Source: Ramicandelaber brevisporus
Lineage: Eukaryota; Kickxellomycota; Ramicandelaberales; Ramicandelaberaceae
DNA length: 20,067 nt
Assembly (NCBI GenBank): GCA_025201865.1
Contig: MU603109.1
Span: 1-20,067, forward strand
Reading direction: 5' to 3'
Shown: positions 8,894-20,026 of the stretch, piece after piece
Layout: each line of letters starts with the position of its first letter
How positions within the stretch are numbered: position 1 is the stretch's first letter
Made by a program: the position numbers and the translations under genes
The notes under the pieces: generated by a model
What the model was told of the DNA's origin: nothing
The model's input: only the letters and a program-made list of their open reading frames with translations
The model's database searches: none

Positions 8894-11800
8894 TTAAATG
8901 AGTTCAATAGACCAGTTGCTAGCGACTGGCAATGCTGGATTGTGTACAACCAACACCTTGTTCTTTGATGACCATTCATATCTAGCATCGCTCTGCTCAC
9001 TTCCGTCGACGTTAATCTTCACACCGGTTGGCGCTCTCTTCAATCCCAAAATAATAATGCGCTCAATCTTCAATGCACTGGCCACATTCCGAACATATTG
9101 ACCAACTGCCGTATCCGTCGACATGCTGTGTCCGTTCGTCTCCGCTACAACTGGAGCTGAAGACAGTGTGTTCTTCTCAAAGGAGAATTCACGATGCACA
9201 AAGTCATTCTTTGTCTCGAAATCATAGCTGAATCCATCGTCAACATACAATTCACCGCGAGCCTTGCCAGAGTTGTTGACAGCAATGGTCAATGTGAATG
9301 GATCGCGTGCCATGGCCGACGAAGATCTGCGAGCGCGCTCACGAGTTGGCACAATGGCTCCACTGCGCAAGAAGACGGGGATCTTCTCAATTGGAGCCTT
9401 GACGATACGGAAGCCGCTCTCCTTCGGGTTGGGGCTTGGAAGAGGAGCATAGGTATGCCAATCATACCATGGGCCACCGCTGACTTCGTCGCTTGGGAAG
9501 AATGCCTGAACAGCGTTGGCACGAGGATACAGTACTGGACAAATCAAGAGAGAGTCGCCAACCATGTATTGGGTTTCAACAGAGAATGCTTCAGACACAG
9601 ATGGGAATGCAATAAACATTGGCTTGACAATAGGAGTGCCATGGACAGAAGCCTGGTGGAAGAGGGTGTACCACAGTGGAAGTAGTCTATAACGAGCACG
9701 AACGGCATCACGAATCAAATCGGTAACTTGCTCGCCAAATAACCACGGTTCACGACGCTTGGCATCCAAATGAGCATGGGCACGCATAAATGGATAGTAA
9801 GCACCCAACTGATACCATCTAACAAGCAATTCGGGATCGGGATTGCCAAAGAATCCACCGATGTCAGCTCCACTAAATGGGAAACCAACAACTCCATTGG
9901 TCAGTACCATTGGAATCGACGCTATCAAGTGATCCCAACGAGACATGTTGTCGCCAGTCCACATTGCTCCCACACGCTGCGATCCACTGAAATACGCTCT
10001 GGTCAACACAAATGGACGGCGAGGAGTATCGGTGCGATTGCGAACGCCGTCTGAGCTAGCCATGTGATACAGCATTCCGTACAAGTTATGGATTTCACGA
10101 TGCTCAACTTCGCCATAGTGGATGTTATCCTTGACCATTGTGATTTCAGGTCCATTGAAAACAGAAGGCTCGTTCATGTCATTCCAAATGAAGAGATGTT
10201 CGCAGCATTCCGTACAAGTTATGGATTTCACGATGCTCAACTTCGCCATAGTGGATGTTATCCTTGACCATTGTGATTTCAGGTCCATTGAAAACAGAAG
10301 GCTCGTTCATGTCATTCCAAATAAAGAGATGTTCAGTCGATCCAATATACTTGTCGAATTTGAATCTGGAAGACCACCAGCTGCGTGCACTTGGATTCAA
10401 ATGGTCAATGTACTTGCTGCTTCCCGGCCAGCACCATCCATCAAAGTCATTTCCATAGCTATTCTTTACAAAGTATCCATTCTGGAGTGCTTCATCGTGA
10501 ATAACATATCCGTGCTCATTCTTAATGTGGGGATCCACAATGGTAACCAGCTTACGGTTGCCCGTTTCAGCCAATTTGAGTTGCATGTCGGCAGGAGTCG
10601 GGAACTTGTGCTGGTCCCATGTAAAGTACTTTTTGGAATCAGTGTGTTCAATGTCGAGCCAGATAACATCATATGGAATGTCGTGCGCATCAAAGCCAGC
10701 ATTCACGCTCAACACATCTTCTTCATCGTTATAATTCCAGCGGCATTGATGGTATACAATTGCAAACTGCGGCGGCATGGCTGTGGTACCGGTAAGTGCA
10801 GTGTACTGGGCAATCACTCCCTGTGGCTCAGGCGCAGCAAACAAGAACAAGTCCAGCACACCAGATTCTGCGAACCAGTGAGTGCGAGTCGAAAGGGAAT
10901 CATCGCCCTTGGAACGAGACAGCTTGGAGTCCTTCACGCGCTGAATATCAACCCACATTTCAGTTGGATTCATCCAGAATACACCGCCGGATCCACCAGC
11001 TTTGTGCGAGACCATAAACGGAACTGAACCGTACAGCGCCATGGGTGAGTCCAAATCGTGTTCAAACACATCCAGGTTGAACAGACGGTACGGCTCAGTG
11101 TATGCATTGTCATCATGGGCATCTGGGCCACGAGTCGAGCGCAGCGACAGAGTAGTGGCGTGCTCTGGGATACCGTAAACATGACGAGCACCGGGGAATG
11201 TAACGTCAACGCCAATAGACGATGGACCATTTGGCTTTGAGTCAGTCCACGTTTTGAACGTTTCCTCCCATCCACCATCAAGCTCCTCTCCCTCTTCTTC
11301 ATCAGCACTGTCACTGCCAGCCTTTGCTTCAGTATTCACCTCGAATGCAGCGGCAGAGTCTTCGCGCGACACATCCGCACCTGTATACTCTCTGAGAGCA
11401 TCAGCAGTATCAGCAGCAGCCTGCGGATCGTGCACTGGTGGAATTGGCTTTGGTGCCTTCTTGAGGCGATAATGCTCAAAGTTGAACAGGTTGCGCTCAT
11501 TGACAATGACACGCGGCTGGCCATTCTGCATCAGCTCAACCTTGAATGAAGGGCTGCTAGAGACACGCACCGTAACACCAGTCGATGCTCCATCAGCTTC
11601 CACGGCTTCATAATCAGTGTAATCAGCAGTGCGGTGCGGTTCAGTCAGGCCGCCTGGAATTGGAGCAGCCGCATCAGCACTCTTGAGAGCGTATTGAGCA
11701 GCACCTTCGTAGCGTGGCTTGATTGGATTCTTCTCGTTGACATGAACACGAACAGTGCCGCGGCCAACATGGCTAATTTCCACTACAAAGTGTGGATTGG

Positions 11801-12167
11801 TCTTTTGAGCACCTTTGATGACAGCCGATGGAGATACAGCCTCCAGCTCGGCAGTAACAACGCCGCGCGAGGGAACCAGTGTCAAACCACCATTGCTATT
11901 GCCTGTGTTTGAGCCAGAAGAGTCGATGACGCGGTAGATTGGCGACGGGCTGCCGTTGGAGGCACGATCTGCGAAAGCACGCTGGCGACGGCAAAAGGCA
12001 GTGTCGACACAGCGGCGGAAGTCCTCGTGTTTGACTGCATGAACACCATAGCCGAGGAATGGCAAGAGAACGGTGAAGAAGAAGACGACAAGCGAGAGGC
12101 AGGACAGGCCGATCAGCGGCCACGGTCGGTACGCGTACTGAGCCATCAGTCTGCGGAATATAAGCAT
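8894..12167 (-). CDS. GANAB: Glucosidase II alpha subunit (GH31), frame broken by a tandem duplication
   Basis: ER alpha-glucosidase that trims glucose from N-glycans in glycoprotein quality control, acting with a beta subunit. The N-terminus has a hydrophobic signal segment near residues 18-42, then the family motif KHEDFRRCVDTAFCRRQR. Catalytic-domain blocks include VIWLDIEHTD, KLVTIVDPHIK, GWCWPG, the nucleophile motif WNDMNEPSVF (Asp codon 10311-10313, residue 619), and in the second part TGDNMSRWDHL (acid/base region) and GVVGFPFSGADIGGFFG. As given, the upstream frame runs to a TGA at 10179-10181 (662 residues). The downstream half, from 10202 to the TAA at 8894, is in another frame. 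The cause is a near-perfect duplication at 10070-10334 with a 133-bp period. The gene span minus 133 bp is 3141 bp, exactly 1047 codons. The break is therefore either a recent lesion or an assembly error. The start could also be the ATG seven codons later. Confidence 0.9.
10070..10334. repeat. Two 132-bp tandem copies over the GH31 nucleophile motif
   Basis: Copy 1 is 10070-10201 and copy 2 is 10203-10334, separated by one base (G at 10202). The copies differ at one site only, G10190 versus A10323, which is a silent Phe codon difference (TTC/TTT) in the minus-strand gene. Both encode EHLFIWNDMNEPSVF and the residues that follow, up to LYGML. A 132-bp unit would keep the frame; the extra base at 10202 shifts it. 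The G matches neither the base before copy 1 (A10069) nor the base after copy 2 (A10335). It is therefore a filler base, a substitution in a 133-bp unit, or an error. Confidence 0.95.
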
Positions 12168-13659
12168 ACGGCCGTAAGCAGTGTCGATGTGCGTCGAAGC
12201 TGATGCTGGCGAACAACAACAAAGTTACGTGTGATAGATTTCCAAGAGTGAGGTTGAAGTTGAGTTGAGTTGGAGTTGGAGTCGCATTATTATCAATCTG
12301 GTCTGAAGAATACGATGATGATAATGATAGTGGAGAACGACTGGCTGCTATGCCAACATCGCTATCAATGCGACACAGTTTGCTCGACATCAGGTGGTTG
12401 CCTACTGAAGTCATTAAGTATGGCTGTGAGTTACACAGCCAATTTTGGGGAGAGCAAGAAACAAACTGGAAGAGTACACAGCCAACGACGGTGAAATCGT
12501 TAGCCGTTGGGGATTTTTATGAGTGAGTGTATTTACAGCATTTACAGCGGTAGACCCAAACAGGGCTGGATGAGGGCTATGGAGAGTCGGCAAGACAACA
12601 AAGAGTCGGGAAGACTAGTGTGTCTAATGTCTCATTTATACCATGTAGCGCAGCCAGTCTATACCCGTGCAGATGGTCCGGAACAAAAACGAACGAACCA
12701 AAGTGCACCAAACAACCAAAGCGAACCAAAAGAAAAAAAATTATAGCCATGACAACAACACCAACAGGAGGAACAGGTGCTGACAGCCATAGCAACCACC
12801 CACTTGACAACGACGAGGGACGACGACGGCAGAGAGCACCGGCGTGCGATGCAAGAGGTGGGGGAGAAAGCCAGCGGAGGAGGGACGAGCCAAGAGGGAG
12901 GGGAACAGATGGAACATGCCGCTGGGAAAACCCGGATGGACATTGACGCAGATACAAAGACGCAGAGGAAGAGAGAGACCAGGAACAGGGGGAACACGCG
13001 ATACTTGAGAGGATCTTGAGACAAAAGCGGATACAGTGGAAGACAAAGGTTAGAGGAAGGGAGAGGGAGAACGGGCCAAATAACGACAGCCGAAGACACG
13101 TACAGCATCGCGTTCCTATACTCTTTTCTCGAAGCTGCAATGTTTACAAACAAACCGCCACTACTCGTCTCTTTTGTTTGATTGTAAATTGGTCTTCTCT
13201 CGTATACGTGAATGCACCTTTTTGGATGTTACACACATATTTGTTGGTACTGCGTGATTCGTTGCAGAGTCTGGCAATTCCGAAACAAATGAGCAACTGT
13301 CAACAACGACGCAATTAGTAGATCATTTCCGCCGCGTATCCAAAAGGAGACACCAGGTTCTTTGATCAGCGTAATTCCGGTTTGAAAAGGGATAGCTGAA
13401 TGCGCCACTCCGACTGTTGTCAAACATTCAAACACATCCATTTGTGTTTGCCACAGACACTAATTGTATACATCTCATTCTCTTGTCAACACTTCAAGGC
13501 TCGACAGTATACAGCAAGTAGTTCCGTACGAGCTTTTAGTGCTACACAGCAAAGAAAAAGAAGTGGCTGATTTCAACTTTACATCTTGATTACTCGACTG
13601 AAGATTGACCAACAACAACAGCAACAGCAACAGCAGATCTACCCAGCAACTTGTCAGCC
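12168..13659. other. 1.49-kb gene-free region between divergent genes
   Basis: This gap holds the upstream regions of the glucosidase (-) and zinc-finger (+) genes. Visible structure: a GTTGA/GTTGG tandem tract at 12253-12282; a perfect hairpin at 12422-12440 (7-bp stem GGCTGTG/CACAGCC, 5-base loop); and a T-poor, purine-rich tract at about 12750-13100. The tract is open in several frames because stop codons are rare in such composition. A CAACAG repeat lies at about 13611-13637, just before the zinc-finger start codon. No frame has a recognisable protein, and no tRNA or spliceosomal RNA was seen. A small or spliced gene, or a noncoding RNA, cannot be excluded. Confidence 0.5.
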
Positions 13660-15864
13660 ATGTCGACCGTGAACATAAAGACGGAGCCAGCAACAGTAGT
13701 AGCAGCAACAGTAGTAGCAGCTGTCGATGTGCAAGTCAAGCTCGAGCCGAGTCTCTCAACTGGTGATATCAAACCCGAGCAGCACACTCCAGACGCCGAC
13801 AATATAGTCATGCTCAACTCAGACACTGACAATGAAGAAGACAACGATGACAACGATGGCGATGACACCGACCAACACCAGACCACAGAAGCTCCCAAGA
13901 ATAAACTACAGTGGATATGCAAACATCCTGGATGTGATCGTAGGTTCAATTCTGCTAGTTATCTGGTAAAACATCGACATGAACACAAGCTCCAAACAGA
14001 ACTCAGTATACATGGAAAGACTTACACTCTGACTCGGCAGTCGTTAAATGATCGATGGCCATGTCCTATTCCGGACTGTGAAATGACATATGCAACAGTT
14101 GTTGTTGTGTATAATCATCTACGAACATGCCATGATAGCACTATGAACCAGCCACAACATCGACAGCAGCAGCAGCAGCCTCCAGTAAAGAGGGCTCGAA
14201 TGATTCATTATTTCCATAATGTGGATCATTTTTATGTGAATGATATACGCTGTGGATACCATAATACGACTGGAGTGTTTATTTGTTATGAATGTAGGTT
14301 GGTACCAGAATGTTTACTAGCTCATTTACAACAGAAACATGGATATGATGAGAAGTCGATTGATAATTCTGCTCTACCAGAAAGTGCAGTTAATGCAAAT
14401 GTCGATCCAAATACTAATCAGCACACTGGCAACTCACATCTCACATCGGCAATTCGCGAGCCATATCAGCAACGTCACAAGGATATAGTTCAAGGCTGGC
14501 TTTGTGTTACATCTAACTGTGGTTATTGTGGCTTTACAGCATGTAATAAGAGTGAGCACAAAAGTCGCGTACATCAAGGTAAAGAGATAACAACAGTTCC
14601 TGCCCTTATACTTCGCCTTGTGTATGCGAAAATACAAACCTCATGCTTTCTCATTACTCGCATTGACAAAGCAAGCGGTGCCTTCACAACCAGTAATAAC
14701 GGTCACAGTGAATTGAATGCTCAGGATGAGAATGGTGATGGTATCAGTCAGAATGGGATCGCAGATGAATCAAATCAGAAGCGGCAATGGGTTTGTCAAT
14801 ATCCCAATTGTGGATGCAGTTTCAACTCATCTAAAACACTTAGCGCACATCGACGCGAACACCAACTTGAAGTTGTGGTTAGTGTACACGGTACGACATT
14901 CACTCTTACTCGTCAGTCTGTAGATGATCGATGGCCATGTCCAGTTCCAGACTGTGATACAACATACAAAGTAGTTGATGCTACTCGTGCGCATATTCAA
15001 TGCATTCACAGCACATCAATGAGACAAAAACGTACGAATATGGAGCATGATATTGATCAGCAGCAGCAATCTATCAAAAGGAGACAACCTATCATTCATT
15101 ATTTCATTGATGTAGATAGTTTTTATTTGAATGGAGTTCGCTGTGGCTATCATAATACGACTGGGGTGTTCATATGTCACGAATGCAGGTTGGTTCCGGA
15201 ATGTCTTCTCACACACTTGCAAAAGAAACATGGATACAATGAAAAGTCAATTGATAATGCAATTCTGCCAGAAAGTGTTAGGACTACTGGAAGTGATCCC
15301 AATATTAATCAGCATACCAGCAATCCGCATATCGCAGCAGCAATTAGCCAGCCATATCAACAACAGCATCCAGACATTGTTCAAGGTTGGCTGTGTGTTA
15401 CATCCAACTGCGGATATTGCTGTGCCACTAAAGGGTCTAGAAAACATCATCAGTATATGGAACACAGAGGTAAACAACCATCGACGGTGTCTGCTCTTGT
15501 ACTGCGATTGCTTTATGGGAAAGCACAAACTTCAGGCTTTCTCATTACTCAGTTGGACACAGCCAGCAACAACAGTGTCAATCCAGATAACTCAATGAAT
15601 CAGTATAATACCGAGAGTGAGGACGAAGAGGACGTTGAAGTAGAAATTAGTGACACTAGTGATGAGGACGATATCTATTCACCAGAGATAGACACAGTAT
15701 CTGCAGAGTCTCCACCATCCCAGCTACAGCAACCTCAACCACAATCTCAACCTCAACCTCAACCACAACCTCAACCTCAACCTCAACCACCATCGCAGTA
15801 TAACATATTTAATATGCCGCTACCTGATGATCCTGAGTTCTGGCGTCTTTTAAACGGTTCATAA
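13660..15864 (+). CDS. Zinc-finger protein with two OrsD-like four-finger modules
   Basis: A 734-residue probable DNA-binding protein made of two similar modules. Module 1 has a C2H2 finger (C87, C92, H105, H109), a second one (C135, C140, H153, H158), a third in FICYECRLVPECLLAHLQQKH (C209, C212, H222, H227) and a fourth in NCGYCGFTACNKSEHKSRVH (C287, C290, H300, H305). Module 2 repeats this from C379. The third and fourth fingers, followed by a hydrophobic VPALILRLVYAK strip, resemble the fungal OrsD family (PF12013/DUF3505). That assignment is by pattern. The N-terminus holds three SUMO-type sites (IKTE, VKLE, IKPE) and then an acidic Asp/Asn stretch. The C-terminus has an acidic Ser/Glu stretch, a Pro-Gln repeat and a hydrophobic end (PDDPEFWRLL). 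The acidic parts suggest a transcription regulator. Start: the ATG at 13660; an in-frame TTG three codons upstream is not a likely start. Target genes are unknown. Confidence 0.82.
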   Translation: MSTVNIKTEPATVVAATVVAAVDVQVKLEPSLSTGDIKPEQHTPDADNIVMLNSDTDNEEDNDDNDGDDTDQHQTTEAPKNKLQWICKHPGCDRRFNSASYLVKHRHEHKLQTELSIHGKTYTLTRQSLNDRWPCPIPDCEMTYATVVVVYNHLRTCHDSTMNQPQHRQQQQQPPVKRARMIHYFHNVDHFYVNDIRCGYHNTTGVFICYECRLVPECLLAHLQQKHGYDEKSIDNSALPESAVNANVDPNTNQHTGNSHLTSAIREPYQQRHKDIVQGWLCVTSNCGYCGFTACNKSEHKSRVHQGKEITTVPALILRLVYAKIQTSCFLITRIDKASGAFTTSNNGHSELNAQDENGDGISQNGIADESNQKRQWVCQYPNCGCSFNSSKTLSAHRREHQLEVVVSVHGTTFTLTRQSVDDRWPCPVPDCDTTYKVVDATRAHIQCIHSTSMRQKRTNMEHDIDQQQQSIKRRQPIIHYFIDVDSFYLNGVRCGYHNTTGVFICHECRLVPECLLTHLQKKHGYNEKSIDNAILPESVRTTGSDPNINQHTSNPHIAAAISQPYQQQHPDIVQGWLCVTSNCGYCCATKGSRKHHQYMEHRGKQPSTVSALVLRLLYGKAQTSGFLITQLDTASNNSVNPDNSMNQYNTESEDEEDVEVEISDTSDEDDIYSPEIDTVSAESPPSQLQQPQPQSQPQPQPQPQPQPQPPSQYNIFNMPLPDDPEFWRLLNGS
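13906..15566 (+). repeat. Two tandem copies of the zinc-finger module
   Basis: Module 1 spans about 13906-14676 and module 2 about 14782-15566; the offset is 876 bp at the first finger and 891 bp at the end. The protein is much better conserved than the DNA. RCGYHNTTGVFIC and ECRLVPECLL are identical in both copies, while their codons differ at many third positions. This marks an old duplication with both copies selected as protein. Confidence 0.9.
15730..15791 (+). repeat. CAACCT hexamer repeat coding Pro-Gln
   Basis: A 6-bp repeat (CAACCT/CAACCA) encodes alternating Gln-Pro near the C-terminus of the zinc-finger protein. It is probably length-variable and encodes a disordered linker before the last hydrophobic residues. 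Confidence 0.85.
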
Positions 15865-16009
15865 TCTGTAAATTAAACTATTACCACACTCCAAGCTACT
15901 CCTTTATAATTGAACATTGTCTCCAACTCCAGGTACCTTTTCTGTGAAGAGAGCTTCGACATCCACATCCAAACACTACAAAATTCAAACACTTTCAAAA
16001 CAAGCTACT

Positions 16010-17596
16010 ATGCCGCGTGATAAGGGTAAAGCTGCTGTCGATGCTACTCAACAACAGGCATACGCTCAGCAACAGCAGTCATCGACTGGAGCACCTCGAG
16101 CGCAGCTACCTGTATGGCTGCACTGCAATCAATGTTTCTACTATCCACAGCGCTCCAACGACATTGACTACAACGGTAGTAACGAGGCTTCTTCAATGCA
16201 TCAACAACATCAACAGCAGCAGCAACATAGACATCGGCCAAAAGGCTTCTTTGTAACTGATTGTGGACATGTTTTGTGTAGCTCTTGCAAACCCTCACCT
16301 CCAGACAAGTCCTGTCCCATCTGCAACTCAGCCAACATTGACATCGAACCAGTCGAGACTCTCGACTTTGCAGCGTTCTTCAACCCGACAAGTCATGCAA
16401 TTGAGCAGTTGATTCAGATTGATAACTTTCAGCAGTCGAATACAACCGCATTGATTCATCTTTTGATGTCAAAGAATGCACGGCAGAAGACTGCATTGAA
16501 GAAGGCAAAAGAGGCAATCAATCAGAACCAGGAGCTTAAGCGCAAGTTGGATAATGCTGAACGTGAAAATGAACGATTAAGAGCGCGTTTGGCAGCAATG
16601 GACTATCGGAACACTGGAAATGGTGCTGCTGCCTCAGCTTCAATGACAGATCCTCAGCAGTTAGCATCGAGAGCACCGACTAGCATAATGTCAAACGAGG
16701 TTGATGTTGCAGCTTTGGCGGCAGTAAATGGCGCGCTGTCAAGTTCTGGTAGTGTTTACAGCTCGCCTTCACGTCACATACAGCAGATGTCTATCAATGA
16801 GCAACAGTTTCATCAACATCATCAACACCATCATCAACATCAGCATCAGCAGCAAGCTGAATCACCAACATTGACACAGACTTCATTCGCTCAGCAACTG
16901 TCCAGTGGTAACGTCGATAATGGACAGTTCCATGCACCGAAGCGTCGCCTGTTTGAACGCGATTCCGGTTCCCCAGCAGATACAACACCATCACGCATTC
17001 CAATCACAGATATTCCCACATACTTTGTTCCACCGCGCTTGACTTGTCAATCTCCAATGACACCGCCACCGCCACCACCACCACCACCGCCACAACTATC
17101 GATATCAATGGCCCCGATCAATCGTCCACCAGTGTCTCCATCTGCATTCACTGACATTCTCCCATCCACGCAGCCTCAGATACGCACGCGTCAGTTGACG
17201 ATGCAGCCGCGTCAACCGCGTCAAAACCTCTTCACGCGATATCAGTATCAATCTGACGACTCGCCATTTGGCCATCCGTCGCCATTCTCGAGCCCCATGC
17301 GCGGCTCAGTGCCGCCGCATGTTGGAAACTCGCGTCACTTCACACAGAATTCGGCGGCATCTGTCGCAGGAGCAAGTCCTTTGATATCGTCGGCCATGTC
17401 CATGATTGATCAAGGAAGCAGCCAAGACTGGGTGGCAGACACGCGCGCTCGTCTATCGACACAGCTGCCATCCATGAACCGCAACCGTATCGGGACCATC
17501 CGCAAGCCGTTGTACGACACGCGCGCTCGTCTATCGACACAGCTGCCATCCATGAACCGCAACCGTATCGGGACCATCCGCAAGCCGCTGTATTAA
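16010..17596 (+). CDS. RNF212/Zip3-like RING protein (probable meiotic SUMO/ubiquitin E3)
   Basis: A 528-residue protein with an N-terminal C3HC4 RING: C39, C42, C85, H87, C90, C93, C102, C105. It is followed by the region typical of RNF212/Zip3/HEI10 proteins: an acidic/hydrophobic LDFAAFFNP segment, a FQQSN motif, then a coiled coil at about residues 157-203 (KTALKKAKEAINQNQELKRKLDNAEREN). These proteins act on synapsed meiotic chromosomes and help select crossover sites by SUMO or ubiquitin ligation. The rest is disordered, with His/Gln runs (about 16808-16856), ten prolines (17063-17092) and a basic Ser/Arg-rich C-terminus. Oddities are a long Gln/His insert between the first and second zinc ligand pairs, and a duplicated 26-residue tail. 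Start: ATG 16010 (MPRDKGK). The frame is open further upstream but only from a TTG. Family placement rests on RING spacing plus the following FF and coiled-coil segment. Confidence 0.75.
   Translation: MPRDKGKAAVDATQQQAYAQQQQSSTGAPRAQLPVWLHCNQCFYYPQRSNDIDYNGSNEASSMHQQHQQQQQHRHRPKGFFVTDCGHVLCSSCKPSPPDKSCPICNSANIDIEPVETLDFAAFFNPTSHAIEQLIQIDNFQQSNTTALIHLLMSKNARQKTALKKAKEAINQNQELKRKLDNAERENERLRARLAAMDYRNTGNGAAASASMTDPQQLASRAPTSIMSNEVDVAALAAVNGALSSSGSVYSSPSRHIQQMSINEQQFHQHHQHHHQHQHQQQAESPTLTQTSFAQQLSSGNVDNGQFHAPKRRLFERDSGSPADTTPSRIPITDIPTYFVPPRLTCQSPMTPPPPPPPPPPQLSISMAPINRPPVSPSAFTDILPSTQPQIRTRQLTMQPRQPRQNLFTRYQYQSDDSPFGHPSPFSSPMRGSVPPHVGNSRHFTQNSAASVAGASPLISSAMSMIDQGSSQDWVADTRARLSTQLPSMNRNRIGTIRKPLYDTRARLSTQLPSMNRNRIGTIRKPLY
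17063..17092 (+). repeat. Ten-proline run
   Basis: CCG/CCA codons encode ten consecutive prolines in the disordered part of the RING protein. It is a possible profilin-, SH3- or WW-type ligand, or simply a low-complexity linker. Confidence 0.85.
17438..17593 (+). repeat. Two 78-bp tandem copies at the C-terminus of the RING protein
   Basis: Copy 1 is 17438-17515 and copy 2 is 17516-17593, directly followed by the TAA stop. The unit is in frame (26 residues, from DTRARLSTQLPS to RKPLY). The copies differ at two sites only (T17510/C17588 and C17515/T17593), both silent and both in the last six bases of the unit. It is a very recent duplication, or the last bases have been converted or are the true boundary. 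Confidence 0.95.
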
Positions 17597-18451: not shown

Positions 18452-20026
18452 TTAAGGAACGAGACGGCGGGCTGCGCTGCGCTGAGCACCGGCTGGAGCA
18501 GACGCTTGTCCCTGTGGACCCAATCCCATATGCGCAGCTGGTGTCGCGCCGATCAAGCCCGCCTCGATATCAGGGCGATCGAACTCGGCATCCTCAGCCA
18601 GGATGGCCTCAAAGTCATCGCTGAAGGCCATGTCATCGTCAAAGTCAAAGTCATCCACTTTTCCTTGGTTGGAAGCCGATAAAGCAGCGGACTGGGATGG
18701 CTGCCAGCTAGCCTGGTCAATGCCAGTCGGAACCGGCCCCATAACATTGGCCTGCGAAGTCAAGGTGGACGGCGGCATAGGCACATTAAAGTTGAGCTGG
18801 GCAGGATTCGTTGGGATCGGCGGTGGCTTCGAAATGTCGATGCTGTCAGCTGAGCGGATGAGCATCTTCTCATCCATATCCGGCAACGGAATGGCCTTAA
18901 CCTTGATGATTTGGCGCAGGTAGTTCTTGTCATAGAGGCAGTTGCCAAGGGCATCGCCAAACATGCGCAAGCAACGCTTCGTGGCATCCGTGACAGCCTC
19001 CTTCTTTGCCTTCTCGAATCCCAGCGCCTTGGACTTGACGTTTTCAATCGATCCAAATCCGACGTCTTCGCGGAATGAGCCGTTGGCCAGAGTGACTCTC
19101 ACAATGCAGCTGATGCCAATGTTGTGGTTGCCATTCTGGTTCATGTCACAAAAGTCATCGCGCATACACATGATGCGGGAAGACCAGCCATCAAATCCAA
19201 AGATGTCATTGGCCAGGTTAAAGACGCGGAAAGACTCGAGGTACATGAGCTTTTGGCCGCCTGGCGCCGGACGCGATGCAAGCATCTCGGGACCCAGGCG
19301 ACGGCGCAGCAGGACACGGATGCGAGCACGCTCACCCTCACTAAAGCCACTTGTGGCTTCAGAAGAACCGGTTCCAAGACGCTTGTGCATATCGAGCGTA
19401 TGGTCCTCTGGCAGCTGCGAGTCGTCTGGCACTGGCACCAGCGACAGATTATCATTGCCACGAATCAAAGTCAGCGAGTCAAGGGGCTGCACCTTCTCAG
19501 CCGAAATACGCGCAATTCGCTTGAGGAAGGCCTTGTCATAAACAATGTTGCCCATTGCGTTTCCAAACGTCCGCAACGCGCGTTTCAGCGCATCCGTAAC
19601 TGACTCCTTCTTTGCCTTCTCAAAACCTTGCGCCTTGGAGCGAATATTCTCAATCGAGCCATATCCAATATCTTCGTGGGACTGTCCACCTGGGAGCGTG
19701 ATTCGCACCACGCACGACACGCCAATATTAAATGCATTGTTGATCATGTCGCAGTAGTCGACCGTGAGCTCTACAATTTGAGAGGACCAGCCGTCGAAGT
19801 CAAAGAGCTGGTTGGCGGTGTTGATGGCACGCCAGCCTTCGAGGTAGCTGAGACGCTGGCCACCTGGAGCAGGACGAGTCGCGAGAACCTCGGGACCGAG
19901 GCCACGACGCAGGCGGTTCGCGAGATGGGTACGATCGGCTACTTCAAAGCGGTACGAAGGAGTGAAGACAGCGTCAGCGTTGGAAGTTGGCATCGCGCCG
20001 GATGCCACAACTGCCATATTATTCAT
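18452..20026 (-). CDS. RAD52: RAD52 recombination mediator with two RAD52 domains
   Basis: Single-strand annealing and recombination protein. The 524-residue chain holds two complete RAD52 N-terminal domains, about residues 28-178 and 228-386. Both have LGPE(V/M)LA-x-RPAPGGQ, YLE-x-x-R, FDGWSS, ED(I/V)G(Y/F)GSIEN, FEKAKKE, VTDA and a KR-x-LR-x-FG helix. Positions equivalent to human R55, Y65, K152, R153 and R156 (the inner DNA-binding groove, by memory of human numbering) are R51, Y61, K148, R149, R152 in the first domain and R252, Y262, K350, R351, R354 in the second. So neither looks dead. Domain 2 is closer to canonical RAD52 (GNCLYDKNYLR). After a Pro-rich linker comes an acidic patch (about 457-488). 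Known RAD52 proteins carry one such domain and form 10-11-mer rings. Start: ATG 20024-20026, with an in-frame TAG five codons upstream. No frame break occurs between the domains, and the linker (about 179-227) is hydrophilic. Confidence 0.93.
   Translation of the reverse strand: MNNMAVVASGAMPTSNADAVFTPSYRFEVADRTHLANRLRRGLGPEVLATRPAPGGQRLSYLEGWRAINTANQLFDFDGWSSQIVELTVDYCDMINNAFNIGVSCVVRITLPGGQSHEDIGYGSIENIRSKAQGFEKAKKESVTDALKRALRTFGNAMGNIVYDKAFLKRIARISAEKVQPLDSLTLIRGNDNLSLVPVPDDSQLPEDHTLDMHKRLGTGSSEATSGFSEGERARIRVLLRRRLGPEMLASRPAPGGQKLMYLESFRVFNLANDIFGFDGWSSRIMCMRDDFCDMNQNGNHNIGISCIVRVTLANGSFREDVGFGSIENVKSKALGFEKAKKEAVTDATKRCLRMFGDALGNCLYDKNYLRQIIKVKAIPLPDMDEKMLIRSADSIDISKPPPIPTNPAQLNFNVPMPPSTLTSQANVMGPVPTGIDQASWQPSQSAALSASNQGKVDDFDFDDDMAFSDDFEAILAEDAEFDRPDIEAGLIGATPAAHMGLGPQGQASAPAGAQRSAARRLVP
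18869..19945 (-). repeat. Internal duplication of the RAD52 domain
   Basis: Domain 1 is coded by about 19493-19945 and domain 2 by about 18869-19345, with a period of 201-202 residues. Roughly half of the aligned residues are identical, with one single-residue length difference near NN-x-FN-IG. The divergence shows an old duplication or a fusion of paralogues, not a recent or assembly duplication. Confidence 0.9.

Follow-up and report, generated by a model that had tools for sequence, protein, structure and literature searches.

We have found that Ramicandelaber brevisporus, a soil fungus that has been little studied, possesses a gene, RAD52-A, that encodes two RAD52 annealing domains in one polypeptide, and that a second gene of the same genome, RAD52-B, repeats this layout. 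RAD52-A lies in the window analysed here, a stretch of 20,067 nucleotides that makes up the entire contig MU603109.1 (C391) of a 510-contig, 17,887,837-base assembly. Judged from their sequences, the two proteins represent a real new architecture within a known family. The overall explanation that we consider best, and rather probable, is that two double genes of tandem-duplication origin would supply pre-linked pairs of RAD52 protomers.

A preliminary description of this DNA had claimed two full RAD52 domains in one uninterrupted frame, and its coordinates proved to be exact: the gene is one unbroken frame on the minus strand with an ATG start, zero internal stops and 1572 coding bases, matched twice by the Pfam profile PF04098 (Table 1). 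The start is bounded because the 41 bases upstream of the ATG, where the contig ends, hold in-frame stops. Searched with the protein, PF04098 covered two stretches (E 2.8e-99 and 329.8 bits for the whole protein, with a Pfam curated cut-off of 20.3 bits), and both matches at the DNA level (165.9 bits for domain A1 and 169.9 bits for domain A2) were free of stops. The sole other Pfam match, a 34-residue piece of PF25517 (DSRM_RDM1), falls within the second domain and is likewise present in many RAD52 proteins among the matches listed. A1 and A2 share 55% identity (90/163 aligned residues) and are separated by 37 residues between the profile edges or by approximately 55 between the conserved cores as judged by eye, so that the linker length of about 50 given earlier is a fair figure. 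By PF04098 family membership and by its RAD52 fold RAD52-A is a member of the family, and it departs from the one-domain-per-chain organisation of ordinary RAD52.

RAD52-B, located on contig C378, is an unbroken open reading frame (ORF) of 526 amino acids (aa) with 41% identity to RAD52-A and two domains too, and its product is identical to the deposited 526-aa protein P0002 of R. brevisporus, a fungus whose genus is placed within Kickxellomycotina by the NCBI taxonomy. Its linker comprises 13 residues between the profile edges (27 between the conserved cores by eye), and because of these only 13 residues separate transcripts for its two halves are very unlikely. As RAD52-B repeats the layout with such a short linker, it also supports the architecture of RAD52-A and disfavours an artefact. 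PF04098 matched the assembly at four places, one pair each on C391 and C378, and a search of the whole assembly with the Mycoemilia Rad52 as query (E up to 1) returned the identical four places. A single-domain RAD52 was not found in the 510 contigs by either search, and the genome likely does without one.

The double architecture is rare. Among 313 RAD52-family proteins inspected, taken from the best 120 matches per search in searches covering proteins up to roughly 915 aa, two full domains are present in RAD52-A and RAD52-B only (2/313). All 12 named relatives (Mycoemilia, Spiromyces, seven Coemansia, Kickxella, Linderina and Dimargaris), which belong to Kickxellomycotina, carry one domain per chain, in contrast to the two in both Ramicandelaber proteins. 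A profile built from the tandem alignment of A and B scored these two with >1000 bits and the next protein with 232, a gap that is as expected if no further double protein exists among the 7994 candidates scored. As far as searched, the double architecture appears confined to the Ramicandelaber lineage. The canonical fungal Rad52 (Mycoemilia, Spiromyces, Coemansia, Kickxella, Dimargaris and yeasts) shares with it the PF04098 domain, at ~38–58% identity to the Ramicandelaber domains, and the inner-groove residues, and most of the relatives examined also have an acidic C-terminal tail. The earlier remark that no RAD52 of such architecture was known to be described agrees with the open-access literature searched, in which we found no account of a double RAD52, paywalled articles, preprints and the architecture tables of InterPro lying outside this scope; the main text of a study that arranged 10,280 single-strand annealing proteins in a structural tree (PMC11783212) does not contain the words tandem, fusion or duplicat.

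Table 1: Features of RAD52-A in the window (positions in the window, all numbers 5' to 3' on the forward strand).
Feature	Positions	Strand	Remarks
RAD52-A, intronless ORF whose single frame holds two RAD52 annealing domains	18452-20026	(-)	524 aa; stop codon included
Domain A1, residues 26-188	19463-19951	(-)	Pfam core 19496-19930; inner-groove residues canonical, acidic D at human G80 (interface)
Linker, residues 189-225	19352-19462	(-)	between profile edges
Domain A2, residues 226-391	18854-19351	(-)	Pfam core 18896-19327; zero departures at the 27 most conserved columns
Direct repeat copy 1, 156 bp	19524-19679	(-)	shares 72% identity with copy 2 at a 606-bp offset, family D6
Direct repeat copy 2, 156 bp	18918-19073	(-)	partner of copy 1, family D6
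Acidic patch DFDFDDDMAFSDDFEAILAEDAEFD in the single disordered C-terminal tail	18578-18652	(-)	12 acidic residues of 25

A tree of 58 domains separates the four Ramicandelaber domains from the others by one branch (bootstrap 95, 61 in the Shimodaira–Hasegawa-like approximate likelihood ratio test, SH-aLRT), and with Rad59 added the four-domain clade was obtained with 96/68, the bootstrap being not settled and Rad59 sitting on a very long branch. Because the four domains group together, the doubling looks like a lineage-specific tandem duplication, for which the clade support is not decisive, and parsimony would prefer a single doubling of the domain, with the gene duplicated afterwards, over two doublings, which are conceivable too. 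At the DNA level the duplication has left its trace as the 156-bp direct repeat of Table 1. The two halves of RAD52-A differ most at third codon positions (identity 0.44 compared to 0.67 and 0.71 at the other two), with 0.40 nonsynonymous (dN) and 1.66, near-saturated, synonymous (dS) substitutions per site, a pattern expected under long protein constraint on both halves. In an alignment by eye, the segment entering the A linker, LDSLTLIRGNDN, is similar to the residues MDEKMLIRSADS with which the tail behind A2 begins, which suggests that the linker is a cut-down RAD52 tail left from the tandem duplication. The match of the Mycoemilia Rad52 to A2 extends into the A tail. In the AlphaFold2 (AF2) model the A linker is disordered, and it shows little likeness to that of RAD52-B.

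Each gene encodes one tail with an acidic patch, the best 25 residues holding 12 acidic residues in A and 10 in B; the same count gives 10–14 in 11 kickxellomycete proteins, 2 in Dimargaris and 8 in Basidiobolus, and the patch may bind RPA. In yeast Rad52 the motifs for interaction with Rad51 and RPA sit in the tail half (PMC10556141), and a Rad51-mimicking FVTA-like motif described for the yeast-type tail is missing in certain ascomycetes in which Rad52 is expected to act as mediator (PMC3902949). FxxA was not found in the RAD52-A tail. The RAD52-B tail ends in GFKTA, similar to GFKSA in the Rad51 of the same genome, which by eye would be a polymerisation motif; GFK[ST]A arises in 0.04% of shuffles of the RAD52-B tail and FxxA in 56%.

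All residue numbers in the following are human RAD52 positions assigned by alignment. The residues R55, Y65, K152, R153 and R156 line the inner groove for single-stranded DNA (ssDNA) (PMC3823998), and the earlier reading that the basic groove is kept holds for both A1 and A2, which have all five as well as K169. A1 has D at G80, where 304 of 306 other domains have G, and both A domains are non-basic at K102, a position of the outer site; because of these two positions the A domains can be called complete with qualification only. At 27 columns conserved to at least 95%, A1 departs once and A2 never, which does not bear out the proposal that domain 1 of RAD52-A is a specialised half and domain 2 the canonical one. 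The specialised half is, from residue conservation, the first domain of RAD52-B (B1), which shows five substitutions and one gap at these columns and is without R55, Y65 and T148, the latter two invariant elsewhere. B1 keeps K152/R153/R156 and the fold and should still fold despite the lost residues; B2 has K in place of R156. In B1 the Y81 of the hydrophobic subunit-interface cluster is replaced by E and in A1 G80 by D, with FGFDGW kept in A2 and B2, so that on these two substitutions the acidic interface residues of the first domains may mark two types of interface.

RAD52 domains contact their neighbours, with ssDNA lined along the groove. We propose that the ancestor was a RAD52 gene with a single domain, whose annealing-domain unit was duplicated in tandem and in frame, most of the tail being lost from the first copy. 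RAD52-A and RAD52-B, apparently the only RAD52s of the genome, would then each form a pre-linked pair of annealing protomers, the two domains of which would pack as neighbours in a ring or open ring with the ssDNA crossing alternating first and second domains. The assembly nucleus would already be a dimer, and there would be one RPA/Rad51-contacting tail per two domains and not one per domain. RAD52-A could be the conservative annealing form, and RAD52-B would be asymmetric, with B2 as working-type domain, B1 as a structural protomer that is folded but weakened at its inner DNA site, and a tail whose GFKTA resembles GFKSA of its own Rad51; the two proteins might divide the labour in this way and might also co-assemble.

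Yeast Rad52 assembles into decameric rings (PMC10556141), human RAD52 occurs as 11-mers and as open rings, of which the open rings are reported as active (PMC11096129), and rings of 7–13 protomers as well as annealing by monomers or short oligomers have been described (PMC12002259). Human RAD52 (PDB 1KN0, 5XRZ, 8BJM, 8RJW) thus builds rings and open rings of variable number from single-domain chains (PMC11096129, PMC12002259). Given the active open rings (PMC11096129) and the range of 7–13 protomers (PMC12002259), and because a flexible linker might let one domain stay outside the ring or connect two rings, the preliminary conclusion that a covalent dimer forms even rings only, in fixed alternation, is too strong; the pair would bias assembly towards even domain counts but not enforce them. 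Since the linker of RAD52-B is short, packing of both domains side by side in one ring is the most likely arrangement, and we hold it with fair confidence. A bolder version, in which homomeric RAD52 was wholly replaced by two obligate covalent dimers, a symmetric A and a half-inactivated B, with two interface types, within and between chains, enforcing alternating even rings that carry half the usual tails, appears unlikely to us.

Several observations weigh against the proposed pre-linked pairs. A single-domain RAD52 may have been missed, the assembly being fragmented into 510 contigs. The SH-aLRT of the clade is only 61, none of the groupings A1+B1, A2+B2, A1+A2, B1+B2 and A2+B1 was rejected (p-values of the approximately unbiased test, p-AU, 0.165 to 0.806), several orders of events being compatible with the tree, and rare residues shared among the four domains point several ways. 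The five substitutions in B1 equal in number those in P0228, the most divergent other domain of the set. The AF2 monomer model of the A chain reached a predicted template modelling score (pTM) of 0.43 and does not fix the packing of the two domains, its first domain being built on few aligned relatives with a beta-hairpin of low confidence. FxxA on its own is uninformative (56–65% of shuffles), F.[ST]A occurs in 80 of 186 other proteins of at least 350 aa, and the likeness of GFKTA to Rad51 is a post hoc reading. A BRCA2-like OB1 domain is encoded as well, so that a role of RAD52-B as Rad51 mediator is not required.

The most serious competitor, to which we give a smaller yet real share of belief, is that the doubling is real but neutral, with a fused pair that acts as two ordinary protomers and was fixed by drift in a duplication-prone genome. 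Three more tandem duplications within the same 20-kb window (13651-15864, 15917-17596 and 10070-10334) and an A linker that the model shows as disordered and that has little in common with the B linker agree with it, whereas each half of either gene appears to be under constraint at the protein level, both genes kept the double layout with no single-domain RAD52 found in the assembly, and B1 lost DNA-contact residues yet kept its fold and K152/R153/R156. The domains of one chain might instead be placed in separate rings or on separate DNA strands as a ring–ring or end–end tether, for which the A linker, with its disordered 37 residues between profile edges, is long enough in principle and which suits the lack of a confident packing in AF2; the much shorter B linker (13 residues, 27 between cores by eye) favours neighbours, and we regard such a tether as improbable.

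Rad59 is a separate single-domain protein. The preliminary description had suggested a natural Rad59–Rad52-like fusion, in which one half derives from a Rad59-type paralogue, and this we now find very improbable. B1 is divergent, as is Rad59, and against a provisional Rad59 sequence B1 (131) and A1 (129) gave the top scores of seven domains, only 2 and 0 above the best control; all four domains, however, scored 330–443 with the yeast Rad52 domain (P0057) and 103–131 with this Rad59, against which three ordinary Rad52-type controls reached 122–129. By these scores the Ramicandelaber domains are nearer to Rad52 than to Rad59. They also cluster in a single clade apart from Rad59 and from the Schizosaccharomyces Rad22 Rti1 (P0158), and the strands of the beta1–beta2 hairpin are predicted in A1 (with low confidence), A2 and B1, a hairpin reported to be either absent or much extended in Rad59 and a phage Sak (PMC9870868). 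S. cerevisiae Rad59 and Schizosaccharomyces Rti1 resemble genes A and B as coexisting RAD52-type paralogues, but they are separate single-domain proteins and no Ramicandelaber domain groups with them. An artefact of the gene model or assembly, that is two genes or transcripts or a chimeric contig, is hardly credible: the ORF begins 41 bp from the contig end, and GT and AG dinucleotides occur around the A linker, but the 1572 coding bases form a single open frame, halves with 55% identity are no collapsed repeat, and gene B with its short linker has the same layout and is deposited as a 526-aa protein.

We also looked for other recombination genes. PF08423 (Rad51 family) matched the genome once, at a Rad51-like ORF of 337 aa on contig C17 (L005 1492-2505), and this search gave no candidate for Dmc1, Rad55 or Rad57, of which intron-split or divergent genes could escape it. 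An RPA1-type C-terminal domain was matched once. The BRCA2 OB1 domain was found with 97.3 bits in a long open frame (C230:3094-3435, L010) and a second time with 20.8 bits, below the cut-off; a BRC repeat (PF00634) was not found in the genome. Mgm101, which differs from RAD52 as a family of its own (PF06420, 16–18% identity in structural alignments), had two matches above the cut-off (C364:18523-19029, L012, and C465:11191-11706, L013), and this second annealer of the RAD52 superfamily seems to be duplicated too.

Other duplications were observed in the window. A zinc-finger-like ORF (13651-15864, plus strand, 737 aa, weak C2H2 match) contains an internal tandem duplication with an offset of 876-891 bp and 72–78% DNA identity over four stretches, and a related-looking ORF (L005 3-1187) adjoins RAD51 on C17. 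A RING-like ORF (15917-17596, RING match just under the Pfam cut-off) carries at its C-terminal end a 77-bp unit in tandem at 99% identity (17438-17592, plus strand), so that its protein ends with two copies of DTRARLSTQLPSMNRNRIGTIRKPLY. A 132-bp tandem repeat of 99% identity (10070-10334, minus strand) within a gene that by eye looks like a glycosidase (ORFs 10179-12167 and 8894-10288) coincides with a frame break and is either a recent mutation or an assembly error.

The number of subunits required by RAD52, the status of closed rings as active form or reservoir and the role of the many tails are debated (PMC11096129, PMC12002259, PMC10556141). A covalent pair of natural origin, in a genome where the searches revealed no single-domain RAD52, would be a ready-made tool for the study of RAD52 assembly, as a linked pair would favour even domain numbers unless one domain is left out and would halve the number of tails, while gene B would offer a natural mix of intact and weakened DNA sites. 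Its chief interest may lie in being a natural experiment on whether a ring-forming RAD52 can be built from linked pairs.
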